64,000 bases of DNA, from positions 62,001 to 126,000 of the forward strand of contig JACRPS010000005.1 of NCBI GenBank assembly GCA_016223085.1, in the 5' to 3' direction. The notes below the pieces were generated by a model that saw nothing but the letters and a program-made list of their open reading frames with translations, had not been told where the DNA came from and did no database searches. The DNA comes from Chloroflexota bacterium (GTDB lineage: Bacteria > Chloroflexota > Anaerolineae > Aggregatilineales > Phototrophicaceae). Numbering within the stretch: the stretch's first letter is position 1; each line of letters starts with the position of its first letter. Shown in pieces: positions 17,950-62,619 of the stretch. Position numbers and translations under genes: made by a program.

Positions 17950-18033
17950 AACCTGATACACGGACAAGATGAGAATGATGAGGACTTCCGTAAGGGCGCA
18001 GGCCGTACGCCCCATACGTACCAGATTAAATAT

Positions 18034-18105
18034 CTATCCATAAACCCTTCGTAGGGGCACGGCATGCCGTGCCCCTACCGACAGCCAAAAGCGGTTTACG
18101 GATAG
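18034..18105. repeat. Shell-1 repeat, reverse orientation
   Basis: CTATCCATAAACCCTTC, the 28-bp hairpin at 18051-18078, then GGTTTACGGATAG. Compared with 10636-10707 it is the reverse complement. Confidence 0.9.
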
Positions 18106-18138
18106 GTCTTAAGTGTTATGTGCCGCCAGGGGGTGAAA

Positions 18139-18202
18139 ACCTGCTGGAAGCGGGCTGAAGAACATCGCTCGCTCGTCTTTCCCAGCCACCTGGAAGGTGG
18201 CT
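18139..18202. repeat. Double hairpin, reverse orientation
   Basis: An eroded CCTGCTGGAAGCGGG arm pair followed by the perfect AGCCACC...GGTGGCT hairpin at 18184-18202; reverse order relative to 10470-10531. Confidence 0.7.
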
Positions 18203-18350
18203 TTTGCACACAGCCGGACGGCATCCAGCGTCCGGCGCGGCCAACCGTAACCTTATCCCGTTAGGTGGAGCGCACGCCAGCGGGGACCCTACGCGGCGGC
18301 CACCAGACACCGACTCCTAGTCTGAATTCACCCACCTGACCCATGCTCAG

Positions 18351-18380
18351 TTGCCTATTGTTGTCTATAATTGCCTATAG
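18351..18380 (+). promoter_or_regulatory. Three tandem 10-bp repeats over a -10 box
   Basis: TTGCCTATTG, TTGTCTATAA and TTGCCTATAG follow each other without a gap (consensus TTGYCTATWR). The 10-bp period puts each copy on the same face of the DNA. A perfect TATAAT (18366-18371) lies across copies 2 and 3, with the kinase ATG 35 bp downstream. It looks like an operator for a protein that binds as a side-by-side array; the HTH domain of the kinase encoded downstream is an obvious candidate. Confidence 0.65.
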
Positions 18381-18406
18381 TCTTACAAACAAAAAACCGA
18401 TTGAGC

Positions 18407-20251
18407 ATGACCCTATCTGAACTCGTTACAATCGAAGAACTGGCAACACTGCTGAACGTCCACCGGGAAACCGCCCGCCGCCTGCTGCGGCAGCAGCGCG
18501 TGCCCGGTGGTATCCGGCTGGGCAAACGCTGGTATATCCGCCGGGAAAATCTCGAAGCCTGGCTGTCCCAGTTGCAGCGGACACCAATGGCCGACGAAAT
18601 GCCACTGACGATTCCCAGCCTGCCGGACCCGGAGGACACGTCGCCGGTCGCTGCCGGCCTGGCCTGGTTCCGCGAACGGATGCTGCTGGCGGCAATTGTG
18701 GAGTGTTCGGACGACACGATTTTCAGCAAAACGCTGGATGGCATCATCCTGAGCTGGAATACCGGCGCGGAACGAATGTACGGCTATAGCGCCCATGAGA
18801 TCGTCGGCAGGCCGGTGAACACGCTGGTGCCGCCCGATTATCCCGATGATGTACCAATGCTGATGGCGCGCATCCGGCGCGGTGAACGGATTGACCACTA
18901 TGAAACCCGGCGCTGCCGCAAGGACGGGCGGGTGATTGATGTGTCGCTGAGTATCTCGCCGGTGCGTGACCATACCGGCAAAATTGTCGCCGCGGCGACG
19001 ATTGCGCGCGATATCACGGAGCGTAAACACGCCGAGCAGCGGGCGCGCGAGCAGGGACAGGAGCGTGAGCGATTGCTGGAACGGGAACGGCAGGCGCGTG
19101 CGAAAGCAGAGAAAAACGCCCGCTGGTTGGCCCGCCTGCAAACGGTCACTGCCGCGCTGGTGGAAGGCCTGACCAGCAGCCAGATCGGTGAGCTGGTGGT
19201 GAAACACGGTGCCGAAGTCCTCGGCGCTGCCACCGGCGCTTTCCTGCGTGCTCTGGACGGCGGCGCCAGCTTTGAGATTGATTACCTGTTGAATTCCCGC
19301 ATGTCCGCAGCGCAGCAGCAGCACTGGCGGCGGTTTCCGGCCAACCCCCGCTATCCTATCGCCTACGCGGTTCAAACCGGGCAGCCGCTGTGGTTTGACA
19401 GCGCCGACGAGATGGTACGGCAGTTTCCCGACATGGCGGAGTTTGCGTCCGGCTATCCCGGCTCATCCGCCATGCTGCCGCTGCTGGTGAATGGGCGCCC
19501 GCTGGGTGCGATCAGTTTCACCTTTGACGGTTCGCGCCGGTTCACCGAGGATGAGCAGCGGTTGATGCTGGCGCTGGCGCACCAGGGCGCGCAGGCGCTG
19601 GAACGGGCGCGGCTGATTGAGGAAGCCAAAGAGAAGGCCGCGCTGGAAGAACGCCAGCGGCTGGCGCGTGATCTGCACGACGCCGTCAGCCAGACGCTGT
19701 TTGCCGCGACGACGGTGGCAGAGTCCATTCCCCGCCTGTGGAAAAACAATCCTGAACGCGGCCTTGAGCAGCTCGATCAGGTCGTCCAGTTGAATCGGGT
19801 GGCGATGTCCGAAATGCGCATCCTGCTGCTGGAACTGCGCCCGGAAAACATTGTCAAGACCAAACTGAGCGACCTGTGCCGCCACCTGACGGAAGCCCTG
19901 AAAGGCCGCAAACGGATCGCGGTAGACTGCACGGTAGAGGGGGAAGAGGCAGCCATTCCGCCGGAAGCGCATCTGGCGCTGTACCGGATTGCGCAGGAAA
20001 GTGTCAACAATATCATCAAGCACAGTCAGGCGACGGCGGTCAATATCCGCCTGTCCTACCAGGCCGGGCGCTTGATCTTAACCATCGAGGACAATGGCCG
20101 GGGCTTTGACCCCGATCAGCCCTCCGGCGGGCTGGGGCTGCGCTCCATGCGTGAACGGGCCGAGGCGCTGGGCGCGACTTACCAGCTTACCAGCCGTCCC
20201 GGCAAGGGGACCCAAATCCGCGTGGAGTGGGCCAAGCCGGACGCGGAGTAG
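18407..20251 (+). CDS. HTH-PAS-GAF sensor histidine kinase (NarL-type)
   Basis: Soluble sensor kinase (614 aa). Domains in order: excisionase/MerR-type winged HTH (about 1-60; LVTIEELATLLNVHRETARRLLRQQRVPGGIRLGKRWYIRRENLEAWL), PAS (about 90-215; DDTIFSKTLDGIILSWNTGAERMYGYSAHEIVGRPVNTLVP, with PAC ending ITERKHAEQ), a coiled coil, GAF (about 245-410), HisKA_3 with H-box ARDLHDAVSQTLF (about 425), and HATPase with DNGRGFDPDQPSGGLGLRSMRERAEALGA. No TM helices. Start: ATG at 18407; the TTG at 18371 lies inside the operator-like repeats. No response regulator is adjacent. A histidine kinase that carries its own DNA-binding domain is unusual and could act directly on transcription. Confidence 0.88.
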   Translation: MTLSELVTIEELATLLNVHRETARRLLRQQRVPGGIRLGKRWYIRRENLEAWLSQLQRTPMADEMPLTIPSLPDPEDTSPVAAGLAWFRERMLLAAIVECSDDTIFSKTLDGIILSWNTGAERMYGYSAHEIVGRPVNTLVPPDYPDDVPMLMARIRRGERIDHYETRRCRKDGRVIDVSLSISPVRDHTGKIVAAATIARDITERKHAEQRAREQGQERERLLERERQARAKAEKNARWLARLQTVTAALVEGLTSSQIGELVVKHGAEVLGAATGAFLRALDGGASFEIDYLLNSRMSAAQQQHWRRFPANPRYPIAYAVQTGQPLWFDSADEMVRQFPDMAEFASGYPGSSAMLPLLVNGRPLGAISFTFDGSRRFTEDEQRLMLALAHQGAQALERARLIEEAKEKAALEERQRLARDLHDAVSQTLFAATTVAESIPRLWKNNPERGLEQLDQVVQLNRVAMSEMRILLLELRPENIVKTKLSDLCRHLTEALKGRKRIAVDCTVEGEEAAIPPEAHLALYRIAQESVNNIIKHSQATAVNIRLSYQAGRLILTIEDNGRGFDPDQPSGGLGLRSMRERAEALGATYQLTSRPGKGTQIRVEWAKPDAE

Positions 20252-20285: not shown

Positions 20286-20326
20286 CAACGCTCTGTGCCT
20301 CTGCTTCTCTGTTTCAGGCTTAGTAT

Positions 20327-20398
20327 CTATCCATAAACCCTTCGTAGGGGCACGGCATGCCGTGCCCCTACCGACAGATAAAAGAGGTTTACGGATAG
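20327..20398. repeat. Shell-1 repeat, reverse orientation
   Basis: CTATCCATAAACCCTTC, hairpin 20344-20371, then AGGTTTACGGATAG. It lies between the convergent kinase and ABC-permease genes, 5 bp from the permease stop. Confidence 0.9.
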
Positions 20399-20402
20399 GT
20401 AT

Positions 20403-21554
20403 TTAGGTATTTACCCCCCGGCGCACGGTCTGCGCCGCCAGCACCACAAACGCCGATGCAAAGGCGACCAGCGCCAGCACAAACGGTGCGATCTGAATCA
20501 GGTCGAACCCCTTAATCATCACGTCACGCAGGGCGCGGTTGGCATGGGTCAGCGGCATCAGCCATGCCACTGGCTGCAACCATGCCGGCATCTCTTCCAC
20601 CGGCCACAGCGCGCCGGACAGCAAAATCTGCGTGACGACCACCAGCGGGATAAACTGTACCACCTGGAACTCGTTGCGGGCAAAAGTGCTGAAGAAAATG
20701 CCGAGGTTGACGGCCATCAGCGCCAGCAGGAATTCGACCACGAAGATCACCGCCAGGTTGCCGGTGTAATGCACGTTCAATCCAAAGATCGTATAGCCGA
20801 GGATGATAAGCGCCTGCGCCAGCGCAAACAGCGCGAAACCGAGCATATAGCCGGTGACGATCTCGATCCGGCGAATCGGTGTGGCTTGCAGCCGTTCCAG
20901 TGTCCCGGCGGCACGCTCGCGCAAAAACGCCACGCTGGTCAGGATGAACACAAACAGGAACACAAACAGGCCGATGAACACCGGCGCGAGGTAATCCATC
21001 GTGTCGAAGTGCGCGCCGCCGTAGCGGTACGTTTCCTGCAGGTGTACCGGCGGGGCGGTCACGGTCGCGCCGCCGATGACGCTCAGGCTGGCGAGGGTTT
21101 GCACCGCGCCGCGCGTGAGCAGGCCTGCCAGCAGTTGGGCGGCCATCGGGTTCGAGCCTTCGTATTCGACCGGAATGGTCAGTTCGCGGGCGGCCACCGT
21201 CCGCGCCGAAAAATCGGCGGGCAGGGTAATTACCGCGTCCAGTTCGCCCGCGTCCAGTCTGGCGCGTGCCTCGGCGGCGGGCATGACCTGTATCTGAATG
21301 ACATCGCTGACGCTGCCCAGGCTCTCCGCCAATCGTTGGCCCAGGTTTACCTGCCGGTTGCCCAACGGAATGACCGCGCCCTCGTCTTCCAGCACCAGAC
21401 CGATAGACAGAGGCGAAGATTGGCTGCGGACGAGGATGCCGGCGACGGTCATCACCGCCAGCGGCACAAACAGAATCAGCGCGATAGTGCGTTTATCCGC
21501 CGCCAGTTGTTGAATCACCCGGCGGGCGAGAGTCAGGATGCGGGTGGTGGACAT
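20403..21554 (-). CDS. ABC-2 type export permease
   Basis: Permease subunit (383 aa) of a type-2 ABC exporter. Topology: one N-terminal TM (residues about 25-45, IALILFVPLAVMTVAGILV), a large extracytoplasmic domain (about 50-180) and five C-terminal TM helices with FLRERAAGTLERLQATPIRRIEIVTGYMLGF, the ABC-2 hallmark. Start: ATG at 21554 with AAGGAAA upstream. Third gene of tetR-ATPase-permease on the minus strand, but 168 bp of repeat DNA (heptamers and one arm of the 88-bp inverted repeat) separates it from the ATPase gene. The substrate is unknown; TetR-controlled exporters of this type often expel drugs or lipids. Confidence 0.88.
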   Translation of the reverse strand: MSTTRILTLARRVIQQLAADKRTIALILFVPLAVMTVAGILVRSQSSPLSIGLVLEDEGAVIPLGNRQVNLGQRLAESLGSVSDVIQIQVMPAAEARARLDAGELDAVITLPADFSARTVAARELTIPVEYEGSNPMAAQLLAGLLTRGAVQTLASLSVIGGATVTAPPVHLQETYRYGGAHFDTMDYLAPVFIGLFVFLFVFILTSVAFLRERAAGTLERLQATPIRRIEIVTGYMLGFALFALAQALIILGYTIFGLNVHYTGNLAVIFVVEFLLALMAVNLGIFFSTFARNEFQVVQFIPLVVVTQILLSGALWPVEEMPAWLQPVAWLMPLTHANRALRDVMIKGFDLIQIAPFVLALVAFASAFVVLAAQTVRRGVNT

Positions 21555-28637: not shown

Positions 28638-29858
28638 TTATGTTGGTGGCGCAGGCCATTCACCAACGTACCGGGCGCGCGGGCGTATCATCCGATCCAG
28701 CGCGTACTGCTCCAACGCCTGACCCATCCAGCCGACGGTGCGTCCCAGCGCGAACAGGGTCAGCGGGCTGCCGGCGGGTAAGGCTAACGCCCGGCTCAAC
28801 GTGACCAGCGCCAGGTCTATTGTCGGCGGTTCGCCAATCAGCTCCTGCGCCGCTGCGACAGCCGCGTCGGCCATGACCAGCGCGGGCGAAGCCGGATCAG
28901 CCTCTGCGATCCACCGCAGCAGCGCCGCGCCGCGCGGGTCGCCTTCGGGATACAGGGGATGGCCGAAGCCGGGAATCGTTTCGCCCCGCCGCAGCCGGCC
29001 CGCCATCGTCTCGTACACTGCTTCCGGCCTCCCGGCTTCCCGCAGCAGCGCCTCCACGCGCTCGGTGTGGCCGCCATGCCGTGTGCCCTGCAACGCCGCC
29101 AGTCCGGCGATCACCGCCGCGTAGGGAGTTGAATTGGCGGACGCGACGCAGCGCGCCGTGAAGGATGACACATTGAGTTCGTGGTCGGCGCACAAAATGA
29201 GCGCCGCGTCGAGCAGGCGCGCGGCTTCCTCGTTATGCGGTATCCACGCGCGCTGCAGGGCGGCGGCGATGCCCGTATGGATGCCGGTCGTACCGGCAGC
29301 GATGGCGGCCAGCAGCCGCAGAATCCGCGCGCCGGTGCGAACGACAGCAGCCGGGCGCAGATCGTAGGCGGCCAGGTCGTCGGCAGCCGCCAGCGGCAGC
29401 ATCACCTGGAACTGCTGGAACGCGGTCAGTTCGGGAACTGCGCCGGACGCCGCCTGCCAGCGCGCCGGCAGTTCGATGCTTTCCGTCAACGCGGGAAGCG
29501 GCCCGTGCAGATCGCCTGTCCAGATCAGCGCCGCCACCTCCTCAAGGCTGTGCCGCGCCGCCAGTTCAACAGCATCGTGCCCCCGGTAATACAGGTGGCC
29601 GTTCTCGATCAGGGTGATGGCCGATTCGAGCACCGGCGTGCCCAGGTGTAGCGCAGTTTCGGCCACGCGCTCCGGGTTGCGGCGGGACTCCTTGCGCGCT
29701 TTCAACTGGCGCACATCTTCGGCGTGGTAGCGCCGGGCGCGCGGGTCGCTATCGCTGACATCCGAGCGAATCAACCCCCGGCTGACGTAGGAATAGAGCG
29801 TCGGCAGGGTAATGCCCAGTTCTGTGGCGGCCTCCTGCGCCGTGAGAAAATGTCTCAT
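28638..29858 (-). CDS. Citrate synthase-family protein with N-terminal HTH
   Basis: 406-aa fusion: a MerR/excisionase-type HTH (about 1-55; FLTAQEAATELGITLPTLYSYVSRGLIRSD, ARRYHAEDVRQLKARKES) followed by a citrate-synthase fold (about 65-400). Active-site blocks are present: ADHELNVSSFTARCVAS, GTRHGGHTERV with the first catalytic His, IPGFGHPLYPEGDPR with the second, and TIDLALVTL, which aligns with the catalytic Asp segment. It may be a citrate/methylcitrate synthase that also binds DNA, or a regulator that senses acyl-CoA or oxaloacetate. Start: ATG at 29858 with AGGAG 6 nt upstream. Divergent from a second citrate synthase, with palindromes between them. Confidence 0.85.
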   Translation of the reverse strand: MRHFLTAQEAATELGITLPTLYSYVSRGLIRSDVSDSDPRARRYHAEDVRQLKARKESRRNPERVAETALHLGTPVLESAITLIENGHLYYRGHDAVELAARHSLEEVAALIWTGDLHGPLPALTESIELPARWQAASGAVPELTAFQQFQVMLPLAAADDLAAYDLRPAAVVRTGARILRLLAAIAAGTTGIHTGIAAALQRAWIPHNEEAARLLDAALILCADHELNVSSFTARCVASANSTPYAAVIAGLAALQGTRHGGHTERVEALLREAGRPEAVYETMAGRLRRGETIPGFGHPLYPEGDPRGAALLRWIAEADPASPALVMADAAVAAAQELIGEPPTIDLALVTLSRALALPAGSPLTLFALGRTVGWMGQALEQYALDRMIRPRARYVGEWPAPPT

Positions 29859-29870
29859 GACAACTCCTGT

Positions 29871-29906
29871 ATATTGATTTACCAATCAATATTGACAATA
29901 TATTGT
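29871..29906. promoter_or_regulatory. Palindromic operator region between citrate synthase genes
   Basis: Two adjacent palindromes: ATATTGATT-tacc-AATCAATAT (29871-29892, 9-bp perfect arms) and ACAATATATTGT (29895-29906, perfect). They overlap the -35 box of the plus-strand promoter and lie 12 bp from the start of the HTH-citrate synthase gene. The HTH of that protein is the likely binder (inferred). Confidence 0.7.
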
Positions 29907-29963: not shown

Positions 29964-29991
29964 GTAGGGGCGAGGCATGCCTCGCCCCTAC
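29964..29991. repeat. GTAGGG hairpin (core GAGGCATGCCTC)
   Basis: Perfect palindrome, arms GTAGGGGCGAGGCA / TGCCTCGCCCCTAC; compared with the common ACGGCATGCCGT core, both arms are changed in a matching way. It is in the 5' leader of the citrate synthase mRNA, 6 bp before the ribosome binding site. Confidence 0.9.
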
Positions 29992-30009
29992 ATATCGGAG
30001 GAGAGAACA

Positions 30010-31146
30010 ATGTTAGCCGAGGCAGCCTTTAAACCGGGACTGGAAGGGGTGGTTGCCGCCGAAACGCGCCTGAGCAGCGTGGATGGACAGGCGGGCGAAC
30101 TGGTGATCGCGGGCTTCCTGCTGGAAGAACTGGCCGGGAACGCCACATTTGAAGAAATGGTATATCTGCTGTGGCATGACCGGCTGCCGGCTGCAGGGGA
30201 ACTGGCGGACTTTCGCGTGCGGCTGGCGGCGGAACATCACCTGCCACCGGCCACGCTGGCGCTGCTGGATGCCGCAGCCAGAGACAAAGCGGCGGCGATG
30301 GACGCGCTGCGGATGGCGGCCAGCACGTTAAGCCTGGGCCGTGAAGGGGACAACGCCGAGCGCGACGCGCTGAAACTGGTGGCATGTTTTCCGACGATTG
30401 TCGCGGCGTACTGGCGGCGGCTGAACGGCCAGATGCCGATTGAACCCCGCGCCGATCTTGGCCACGCGGCTAACTACCTGTATATGCTGACCGGCAGCGT
30501 GCCGGATGCGGCGCACGTTCGCGGACTGGAAACGTATCTGAATACCGTCGTAGATCATGGCCTGAACGCTTCGACCTTCACCGCGCGGGTGATTATCTCC
30601 ACCGGCTCGGATATGATCTCCGCCGTCGTCGGGGCGCTGGGGGCGCTGAAGGGGCCGTTGCACGGCGGCGCGCCCGGCCCGGCGCTGGACATGGTGTTTG
30701 AGATTGGCGACCCGGCCAATGCAGAAGCGGTACTGCGGCGCAAGCTGGAAGCGGGCGAACGGCTGATGGGTTTCGGCCACCGCGTCTACAAGGTGCGCGA
30801 CCCGCGCGCGGACGTGCTGGCGGCGGCTGCCGAGCGGATGTTCCACGACAGCGGCGATACCGCGCTGTATGACCTGTCGCGGCAGGTCGAACAGGTAGCG
30901 CTGCGGCTGCTGGAAGCATACAAGCCGGGGCGCAACCTGCAAACGAACGTGGAGTTTTACACCGCGCTGGTGCTGCACGGCCTCGGCCTGCCGGTGGAAC
31001 TGTTCACGCCGACGTTCGCCATCAGCCGCGTTGGTGGCTGGACCGCGCACTGCTTCGAGCAGATCAGCGTCGGGCGTATCATCCGCCCGCAGTCGGCCTA
31101 CACTGGCAGCAAAACGCGGCGCTGGTTACCGGTGGAGAGCCGCTGA
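30010..31146 (+). CDS. Citrate synthase / 2-methylcitrate synthase
   Basis: 378-aa type-II-like short citrate synthase that condenses oxaloacetate with acetyl-CoA (or propionyl-CoA). Seen: VDHGLNASTFTARVIISTGSD, GPLHGGAPGPALDM with the first catalytic His, LMGFGHRVYKVRDPRA with the second, and LQTNVEFYTALVLHGLGLP, where the usual catalytic Asp position (NVDFY) is Glu, as I recall for some CitA-type enzymes. C-terminal GRIIRPQSAYTG is typical. Start: ATG at 30010 with GGAGGAGAG 6 nt upstream. Divergent from the HTH-citrate synthase. Citrate or methylcitrate specificity cannot be told from motifs. Confidence 0.92.
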   Translation: MLAEAAFKPGLEGVVAAETRLSSVDGQAGELVIAGFLLEELAGNATFEEMVYLLWHDRLPAAGELADFRVRLAAEHHLPPATLALLDAAARDKAAAMDALRMAASTLSLGREGDNAERDALKLVACFPTIVAAYWRRLNGQMPIEPRADLGHAANYLYMLTGSVPDAAHVRGLETYLNTVVDHGLNASTFTARVIISTGSDMISAVVGALGALKGPLHGGAPGPALDMVFEIGDPANAEAVLRRKLEAGERLMGFGHRVYKVRDPRADVLAAAAERMFHDSGDTALYDLSRQVEQVALRLLEAYKPGRNLQTNVEFYTALVLHGLGLPVELFTPTFAISRVGGWTAHCFEQISVGRIIRPQSAYTGSKTRRWLPVESR

Positions 31147-58034: not shown

Positions 58035-58420
58035 CCCCCGTCGGCGGGCAGCCCCAGCACTTCGCGTACATTTTTCGCCAGTTCTTCCATCGAGAACGGC
58101 TTCGTCATGTAGCGGACGACGTGATGCTGGAGCTTGCCGATCAGGCGGTTGGCGGGGTCGGCCAGCGCGGTCAGCACGATGATCGGAAACGAAAAATCCG
58201 GATGCCGCTCCTTGATCGCATCCAGCACCTGCCAGCCGGACATGCCGGGCATGTTGATGTCCAGCAGCAGCACATCCGGCAGCCGGTCCTCCAGACACTT
58301 CAGCGCCGCGAAGCCGTTGCCGGCGTGCTGGCTTTCAATCCCCATGCGGGTCAATAACATCTGAATCATCCCGGCGATATCGGCACTATCTTCTACAATC
58401 AGCGCGTAACGATCTGCCAC
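58031..58420 (-). CDS. Single-domain response regulator (CheY-like)
   Basis: 129-aa receiver domain without output domain. Seen: [11 protein letters not shown] with the acidic pair, [12 protein letters not shown] with the phospho-acceptor Asp (about residue 54), LTALADP (Thr switch) and [11 protein letters not shown] (Lys). Start: GTG at 58420 with GAGGG about 7 nt upstream; a GTG at 58435 is in frame but too close to its ribosome binding site. Coupled to a GNAT acetyltransferase. No kinase is adjacent; the HTH-kinase at 18.4 kb is the only histidine kinase in the window. Confidence 0.88.
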
Positions 58421-61518: not shown

Positions 61519-62619
61519 ATGCACCGGAATAAAGTTCTCGCTCTCGTTACCGTGCTGGCGTTGCTGCTGGTGGTTCTGGCCCCGGCAGCCGCCCAGGAAG
61601 GCGAAAAATATACCGTCGGCTTCGTGCCCCCCGCGCTGACCAGTCCCTTCCACGTAGCGATGGTGGACGGCGCGACGGCCCGCGCGGAAGAACTGGGCTG
61701 GGAGCTGATCGTGCAGGCCCCCGCCAGCGAAGGCGATTTCCAGGCGTTTGTGACCACCGTCCAGCAGTTGCTGGAACTGGGGGTGGACGCGATCAGCATC
61801 AACCCGATTGGCACGGATTCGGCCATCACCGCCGTGCAGGCCGCCAATGAGAAGGGTATCCCGATTCTGGCGCACAACTTCATCACCCCGTTTGATGACC
61901 CGGACGCAAAGGTGGAAACCTACATCGGTTACGACCAGTGGGGCGGCGCGGAAAAGCTGGCGCTGCACACCTGCGACCTGATTGCCGGGAAGTACGGCAG
62001 CACGCCGGAAGAAACCACCGGCAAGGTGTACATCCTGCTCGGCATTGACAGCATCTTCTCGCACCGCCGCACCGGCGGCTTCAAGGCCGGGCTGGAAAAG
62101 GGCTGCCCGAACGTGGAAGTTGTGGGCGAGCAGACGGCGGAATGGCTGCGGACGAAGGGGCAGGAAGTAGCGGGTATCGCGCTCCAGCAGACGCCGGACA
62201 TTGACGTGTTCTACGGCAACAGCGACGAGATGGCGATTGGCGCCGCGCTGGCCGCCGAAGGGCTGGGACTGACCATCAACGAAGACTTCTTCGCGGTTGG
62301 GATTGACGGCAACCCGCCGACGCTTGACCTGCTGGGCGAGGGCAAGTTTAGCGCCACGCTGGGCGTGGACCCGTACCGCATGGGTGTGACCGTGATTGAC
62401 CAGATGGCGAAGATTCTGGCGGGCGAAGAAGTGCCGCTCATCACCCTCACCCCGTCGGTGGTGGTGACGCCGGAAAACCTCGAAGCGTACCTGGCGGGCG
62501 AATTGTGGACGGAGCCGGTGGCGGGCTTCCCCGAAGTGGACAATGACCTGCCAACCGTCCCCGAAGAGGGTATGGAAGCAACTCCCGAAGTCACGCCGGA
62601 AATGACGCCGGGCAGCTAG
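61519..62619 (+). CDS. CUT2 sugar-binding periplasmic protein
   Basis: 366-aa Peripla_BP_4-type substrate-binding protein: signal peptide ([21 protein letters not shown], cleavage before QEGEK), then [71 protein letters not shown], and [28 protein letters not shown]. The C-terminal 20 residues are a Glu/Thr/Pro-rich tail not needed for binding. Start: ATG at 61519 with AAGGAGAG 8 nt upstream. The ligand cannot be read, but SPFHVAM and the HNF stretch differ from the first system, so a different sugar is likely. Confidence 0.92.

Follow-up and report, generated by a model that had tools for sequence, protein, structure and literature searches.

A soluble histidine kinase of the Chloroflexota with a BldC/Xis-type DNA-binding domain and a candidate operator array upstream of its own gene

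Introduction

BldC of Streptomyces, a stand-alone pleiotropic regulator of 68 residues, consists of a single winged helix-turn-helix (HTH) domain that binds head-to-tail on direct repeats of 9 bp, reads the YpG step through Arg30, and also includes an AT-rich element in its site (PMC5859096). The Xis/RDF excisionases, such as lambda Xis, Pukovnik Xis (4j2n), and RdfS (8dgl), have a winged-HTH fold as well and form filaments along DNA; in PMC11963761, about 10 bp are assigned to each subunit of RdfS, and the mode of lambda Xis is described as similar. Domains of the BldC/Xis type can recognise the shape of DNA where its sequence shows little consensus (PMC5859096, PMC11963761). Kinases and DNA-binding domains are likewise known to be united in one polypeptide; for example, the hybrid two-component systems (HTCS) of Bacteroides join a kinase to a receiver domain and to an AraC HTH at the C-terminus, possess a periplasmic sensor, and are associated with direct-repeat motifs (PMC3878776).

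Direct-repeat binding of the BldC type, HisKA_3 kinases, and fusions of kinases to DNA-binding domains are known parts of bacterial signalling. Histidine kinases are usually dimers, and their genes are commonly located away from those of their partners. NarX/NarQ, UhpB, and LiaS are membrane sensors and, to our knowledge, are without a DNA-binding domain.

The gene described here lies in a 64-kb stretch of DNA, henceforth the window, which corresponds to positions 62,001–126,000 of the forward strand of contig JACRPS010000005.1 from Chloroflexota bacterium GCA_016223085.1; positions below are those of the window unless another locus is named. It encodes a soluble histidine kinase with an HTH at its N-terminus, preceded by three direct repeats. 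In the open-licence literature, searched by titles and abstract openings, no report was found of a histidine kinase that bears an HTH of the BldC/Xis kind, nor of the arrays of the HTH_17-PocR genes compared below or an experimental characterisation of those genes. The combination of kinase, HTH, and array was likewise not encountered in that literature, nor was an association of HTH_17-sensor genes with upstream arrays of 9 or 10 bp.

Results and Discussion

The kinase gene and its repeat array

The features of the locus are collected in Table 1. HisKA_3 and HATPase_c are both present with the conserved histidine, the N box, and the G boxes, as is typical of a sensor histidine kinase of the HisKA_3 type; in NCBIfam, the kinase core matches the models of NarX/NarQ, UhpB, and LiaS, every score being below the equivalog cut-off. 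The N-terminal domain scores 49.7 bits against HTH_17 of Pfam (PF12728, cut-off 27) and 37.9 bits against the NCBIfam model 'excise' (cut-off 28.8). No transmembrane stretch is found in the protein, the top 19-residue Kyte-Doolittle mean being 1.19, and no Response_reg domain is detected within it by Pfam. The longest reading frame opens at the TTG with which the third repeat begins; the ATG at 18407, 26 bp past the array, is the more likely start codon.

Table 1. Positions of the kinase gene, its domains, and its upstream repeats in the window
Feature	Position	Strand	Basis
10-bp repeat unit 1, TTGCCTATTG	18351..18360	+	direct reading, array scan
10-bp repeat unit 2, TTGTCTATAA	18361..18370	+	direct reading, array scan
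10-bp repeat unit 3, TTGCCTATAG	18371..18380	+	direct reading, array scan
TATAAT, possible -10 element, entirely within the array	18366..18371	+	direct reading
Kinase CDS, 614 aa, soluble, HTH_17-PAS-GAF-HisKA_3-HATPase	18407..20251	+	ATG start, Pfam
HTH_17, BldC/Xis-type winged HTH by profile and predicted fold, residues 6-55	18422..18571	+	Pfam, PDB profile, model and fold searches
PAS, residues about 94-205	18686..19021	+	Pfam
GAF, residues 258-399	19178..19603	+	Pfam
HisKA_3, residues 415-480, H424 in RLARDLHD	19649..19846	+	Pfam, motif reading
HATPase_c, residues 523-608, motifs NNIIKH, DNGRGF, GLGLRSM	19973..20230	+	Pfam, motif reading

A preliminary description of this DNA had placed three gap-free repeats of the form TTGYCTATWR at 18351–18380, and they are found exactly there: all three units fit the pattern, no gaps separate them, and the array is the top period-10 triple of the window. 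Under a first-order Markov model, triples with at least 7 of 10 identical columns arise by chance at about 1.6 per Mb (2 events in 1.28 Mb). The same description is borne out in the fusion of an HTH to PAS, GAF, HisKA_3, and HATPase in one soluble protein, as well as in its claim that no response regulator is adjacent, since the nearest receiver gene on the contig lies at 58067–58402 on the reverse strand, about 38 kb away. As for its TATAAT box, the hexamer is present within the array, but a scan of 17950–18700 for sigma-70-type promoters returned none with a -35 box, so that the promoter of the kinase is uncertain.

When the 6.03-Mb genome was searched for the repeat pair, with as many as 3 mismatches allowed, only two overlapping matches were returned, both being the array itself (9 matches for the reversed-pattern control); further arrays in the genome, as considered in the preliminary description, did not come to light. 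Since this search yielded no array but the one described, the kinase probably has its own gene as DNA target and not a regulon. Across 154 genomes of the order, the triple occurs at up to 3 mismatches in three genomes, once each, namely at the window site, in G030 (2 mismatches), and in G043 (3 mismatches); the reversed control gave 14 matches in 5 of these genomes. In G030, which belongs to the same family, the period-10 triple reads TTGTCGATTT TTGTCGATTT TTGTCTAT... at L112:1501–1528; a phosphoesterase-like frame begins about 200 bp after it, and no HTH_17 was noticed beside it by eye among the listed frames of at least 120 aa. Judging from the G030 site, triples of this sort also occur away from HTH_17 genes.

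Identity of the DNA-binding domain

A profile built from 15 HTH domains, those of the kinase and its relatives, was run against the sequences of the PDB and returned BldC first (6ama, E = 1.5e-10; 6amk, E = 3.2e-10), followed by phage Xis (4j2n, 6e-8); phmmer with the single HTH of the kinase returned no relative from the PDB. The fold of the kinase HTH was predicted with AlphaFold2 without templates, from an alignment of five rows, and the model has a mean pLDDT of 75. With this model, BldC is the top match in Foldseek (probability 1.00, E = 0.04, nothing reaching E = 0.001) and also in VIA-align 2 (Z = 8.1, rmsd 2.0 over 54 residues), where another match to BldC gives Z = 7.8 and an rmsd of 1.2 over 51 residues. 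In the alignments, R25 of the kinase occupies the column of BldC Arg30, and each of the three repeats contains TG, a YpG step. Judged by sequence profile and predicted fold, the kinase HTH is a member of the BldC/Xis clade, with BldC as its closest solved relative. Because BldC and RdfS load about 9–10 bp per subunit, three gap-free repeats of 10 bp have the register of a BldC/Xis-type domain.

The kinase and BldC are alike in having a single winged HTH, direct repeats, and an arginine that reads the YpG step in BldC (Arg30; PMC5859096) and that may do so in the kinase (R25). They differ in that BldC stands alone, whereas the HTH of the kinase forms the N-terminus of a histidine kinase (residues 6–55 of 614 aa), which places the protein outside the BldC family in the strict sense of a small protein with a winged HTH only; moreover, the repeat of BldC is about 9 bp, whereas that of the kinase is 10 bp and was found as one array in the genome. 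Similarly, the Xis/RDF excisionases share the winged-HTH fold with the kinase domain, but the protein of the window is a sensor kinase. Compared with the HTCS, which also join a kinase to a DNA-binding domain, the window kinase has no receiver, and its HTH is N-terminal and of the BldC/Xis type, so that it is not an HTCS.

Homologues of the same architecture and origin of the fusion

Among the matches listed, one other HTH_17-PAS-kinase was found, at L114 in the Anaerolineae bacterium isolate ACE_CHL13; the same protein is carried by a genome of the same order (L015). The ACE_CHL13 protein shares 51% identity with residues 1–215 of the window kinase, but its kinase core belongs to the HisKA type, whereas that of the window kinase is HisKA_3. 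For the remainder of the window kinase (query 192–610), a paralogue encoded in the same genome shows 44% identity, and no HTH_17 was found at the paralogue's place in that genome. From these alignments, the HTH-PAS part looks like one module that was joined to two unlike kinase cores. No array of 9 or 10 bp precedes the L114 kinase (p = 0.12), so that the check proposed in the preliminary description, namely that the repeats recur upstream of orthologues, fails at the one same-architecture homologue found.

In the fusion searches, for which 9–19 candidates were scored per genome, a match from residue 1 was obtained in 2 of the 154 genomes of the order, and no HTH-PAS match from residue 1 was seen in other genomes of the genus, in both cases among the matches listed. 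Within 390 genomes of the phylum, a match that begins at model column 1 is confined to the window's own genome; elsewhere the matches begin at column 49 or beyond. Scans of genome contigs for HTH_17-PAS-kinases returned no relative in one case and five loci in the other, which comprised L114 and four frames of 57–82 aa (Roseburia, Lachnospiraceae, and Eubacterium); plasmid matches amounted to 900 records, 20 of which cover at least 80% of the query.

Several other candidates for HTH_17-PAS-kinases were rejected. L102–L105 are PAS kinases without an HTH; L086, L074, L078, and L095, from one genus of the phylum, combine HTH_17 with GAF and HD (L086 by Pfam, with HTH_17 below the cut-off, and the other three by similarity); L108–L110 are HTH_17-ParA-like by eye; and the 493-aa frame of L106, also judged by eye, holds HTH_17 in frame with a MetK-like (S-adenosylmethionine synthetase) part. 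In L149–L154 the HTH lies near the C-terminus. It was observed by eye that the C-terminal-HTH_17 frames of L149, L150, and L153 adjoin an asparagine-synthase-like gene in several genomes.

Arrays upstream of HTH_17-PocR genes

For a wider comparison, HTH_17 genes were gathered by HTH similarity alone among the matches listed, a choice that is independent of the repeats. The removal of duplicates and of short or N-containing upstreams reduced 163 HTH-bearing frames to 154 records, L102–L105 (no HTH) being left out before the array scoring. Upstream regions of 150 bp from these 154 distinct genes, with the closest ATG that precedes the HTH serving as start codon, were scored for triples of periods 7–15 against shuffles of the same sequence (1000 per gene and 500 per control window), with significance set at p < 0.01. 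The PocR class was defined by a profile made from four of these proteins, and Pfam PocR was confirmed on L121 and L123; no kinase was seen in these two proteins, in which it was scanned for with Pfam.

Of the 79 HTH_17-PocR genes, 18 are preceded by period-9 triples and 14 by period-10 triples, and each of the other periods (7, 8, and 11–15) is found in 0 or 1. With the removal of L182, a GAGA microsatellite of period 10, the 32 arrays of 9 or 10 bp become 31, distributed over 12 of 19 families, and 48 of the 79 genes are without a significant array. By comparison, 461 control windows elsewhere in the same loci gave 4 triples at period 9, 0 at period 10, and 0–3 at the other periods, and neither period 9 nor period 10 was found once before the 59 genes with little after the HTH, a class of fewer than 60 residues after the HTH in the stretch that includes some genes with a C-terminal HTH. 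The 16 remaining genes gave 3 triples at period 10, which belong to the window kinase, L108, and L109. Fisher tests of the PocR arrays give 1e-24 against the control windows and 2e-9 against the 59 genes, values that ignore kinship, and the tally of 12 of 19 families is the safer figure. Upstream arrays of 9 or 10 bp at HTH_17-PocR genes are a trait that reaches wider than the kinase finding. At L108 and L109 (HTH_17-ParA-like), the 10-bp direct repeats have an ATTCCCC-like core and lie about 50 bp before the start; they could be a partition or an autoregulatory site.

The repeat units of the PocR genes are often TGCATCA-NN at period 9 or of the TATTGCAAAA type at period 10; for instance, the period-10 array of L121 reads TATTGCAAAT TATTGCAAAT TATTGCATAC. 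Array-bearing HTH_17-PocR loci include L100, L121, L127, L155, L171, L173, L176, and L214. The arrays of the kinase and of the PocR genes have a TTGC/TTGY core in common, and a period-10 matrix trained on 13 PocR arrays, with the kinase excluded, matches the kinase promoter at p = 0.001 against its own shuffles and at p = 0.017 against an AT-rich null. Scores as high as that of the kinase were obtained for 8 of the 66 PocR upstreams that had not been used for training and for 4 of 59 control upstreams, so the matrix lends modest support to a likeness between the kinase array and the PocR arrays. The HTH_17-PocR regulators resemble the kinase in bearing an N-terminal HTH_17 on a sensor domain and in their upstream 9/10-bp arrays (31 of 79), and they differ from it in having PocR instead. 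Their arrays suggest that the same binding mode may be used by sensor-fused proteins of an understudied phylum, and with repeats and regulator side by side, each protein can be examined together with the sequence and spacing of its repeats.

The genomic distribution of the 9-bp type was followed in 14 genomes, of which 13 or more had been chosen for a PocR gene with this type of array. A 9-bp triple pattern, derived from those very arrays, so that their recovery is expected, matched 25 places at up to 3 mismatches, compared with 4 for the reversed control. With at most 1 mismatch, 9 of 9 places lie directly before the genome's own HTH_17-PocR gene, and with at most 2 mismatches 12 of 14 do so; the 11 of the 25 places that have 3 mismatches are all elsewhere, and for G652 and G747 the list contains no place, even with 3 mismatches allowed, next to the HTH_17-PocR gene. 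Autoregulation is favoured over a regulon, because no other site occurs within 1 mismatch and because the kinase array is alone in its genome.

Proposed mechanism

The reading that we prefer, with a probability of roughly 0.6, is that the BldC/Xis-type HTH of the kinase coats the array in its own promoter and autoregulates the gene, and that the kinase core signals to an unlinked regulator. Binding of the HTH to its own promoter appears well supported, if only indirectly, by two lines of comparison: HTH domains of the BldC/Xis type load about 9–10 bp per subunit, and the sensor-fused relatives have arrays of 9 or 10 bp far more often than expected by chance. On this reading, HTH subunits would load head-to-tail on 18351–18380, one per 10-bp repeat, and the coated array would cover the presumed -10 region and block RNA polymerase, whereby the kinase would limit its own expression; repression is probably the sign of the autoregulation. 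PAS and GAF would sense a cytoplasmic signal, and their ligands, or the phosphorylation cycle, may alter the arrangement of the subunits and hence the occupancy of the array. The catalytic core would autophosphorylate at H424 and pass the phosphate to an unlinked response regulator; such a transfer to an unlinked partner is to be expected, because the catalytic motifs are intact and the genome contains 116 matches to Response_reg (E up to 0.001).

Some observations count against this autoregulation model, namely the L114 gene without an array, the 48 of 79 PocR genes that likewise have no significant one, the G030 triple, the weaker matrix match against the AT-rich null with its 4 equally high control upstreams, and the uncertain promoter without a -35 box; in addition, a kinase dimer would bring two HTHs to three repeats, which is counted against the coating of the array. 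If the kinase does bind its own promoter, feedback would reside within the sensor itself, a role that standard two-component schemes leave to the response regulator. A broader extension, which we advance tentatively and do not hold to be probable, is that the HTH_17-sensor proteins of the phylum are self-addressed regulators, each with a private 9/10-bp operator only at its own promoter, on which the state of the sensor or kinase would set the growth of the filament; in the kinase, abundance would then be coupled directly to conformation.

The foremost alternative, although an unlikely one, is that the repeats are the site of another regulator, a sigma factor, or a nucleoid protein, and that the kinase HTH acts elsewhere or binds unselectively. 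Further HTH_17 proteins are encoded in the genome (six of nine HTH_17 matches are over the cut-off, the kinase included), and BldC/Xis-type domains can bind with little consensus (PMC5859096, PMC11963761). The same-architecture homologue of ACE_CHL13 without an array and the triple beside a gene other than HTH_17 in G030 would also fit; however, the array precedes the kinase gene alone in 6.0 Mb, its spacing is that of the BldC/Xis HTH family, and arrays so spaced are enriched upstream of HTH_17-sensor fusions and not upstream of genes with little after the HTH.

Next in standing, and rather improbable, is the one-protein system that the preliminary description had favoured, in which the signal, ATP, or the phosphorylation state would directly alter DNA binding with no response regulator involved. 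The kinase has kept its catalytic motifs, including H424, which would be needless in a pure one-component regulator, and the 116 receiver-domain matches, together with the common separation of kinases from their partners, also speak against it; neither the proposed departure from two-component logic nor the proposed control by signal or ATP state was upheld. What speaks for such a system is that a single soluble protein unites HTH and sensor, the closest receiver gene being about 38 kb away, that the related HTH_17-PocR proteins resemble one-component regulators and have arrays of the same sort, and that the HTH-PAS module is common to the HisKA-core kinase, as if it worked on its own. It is very improbable that the array arose as a tandem repeat by chance or is neutral, with the HTH a passive remnant of gene fusion, as the lack of an orthologous array among relatives and the rarity of the fusion (2 of 154 genomes of the order among the matches listed, and 1 of 390 of the phylum from column 1) might suggest, since no other period-10 triple of the window scores better, the array ends 26 bp before the start codon, its period is typical of the family, and the HTH has kept the fold as well as the arginine that aligns with Arg30 of BldC.

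Other features around the kinase gene

A 92-bp element is found on both sides of the kinase gene, at 18022–18113 and 20315–20406, the two copies being 90% identical; it has the ends TATCCATAAACC...GGTTTACGGATA and a perfect 28-bp palindrome, GTAGGGGCACGGCATGCCGTGCCCCTAC. The element occurs in at least 40 places in the genome (40 scored of 305 candidates, 40 matching over most of the length), and because it is so common, its flanking position says little; a reading of the kinase gene as part of a mobile element was dropped, the flanking element being a common genomic repeat. Elsewhere in the window, a frame at 28638–29885 on the reverse strand matches HTH_17 at its N-terminus and has a remainder that is citrate-synthase-like by eye, and it is arranged head-to-head with a second gene judged citrate-synthase-like in the same way, at 29977–31146 on the forward strand.
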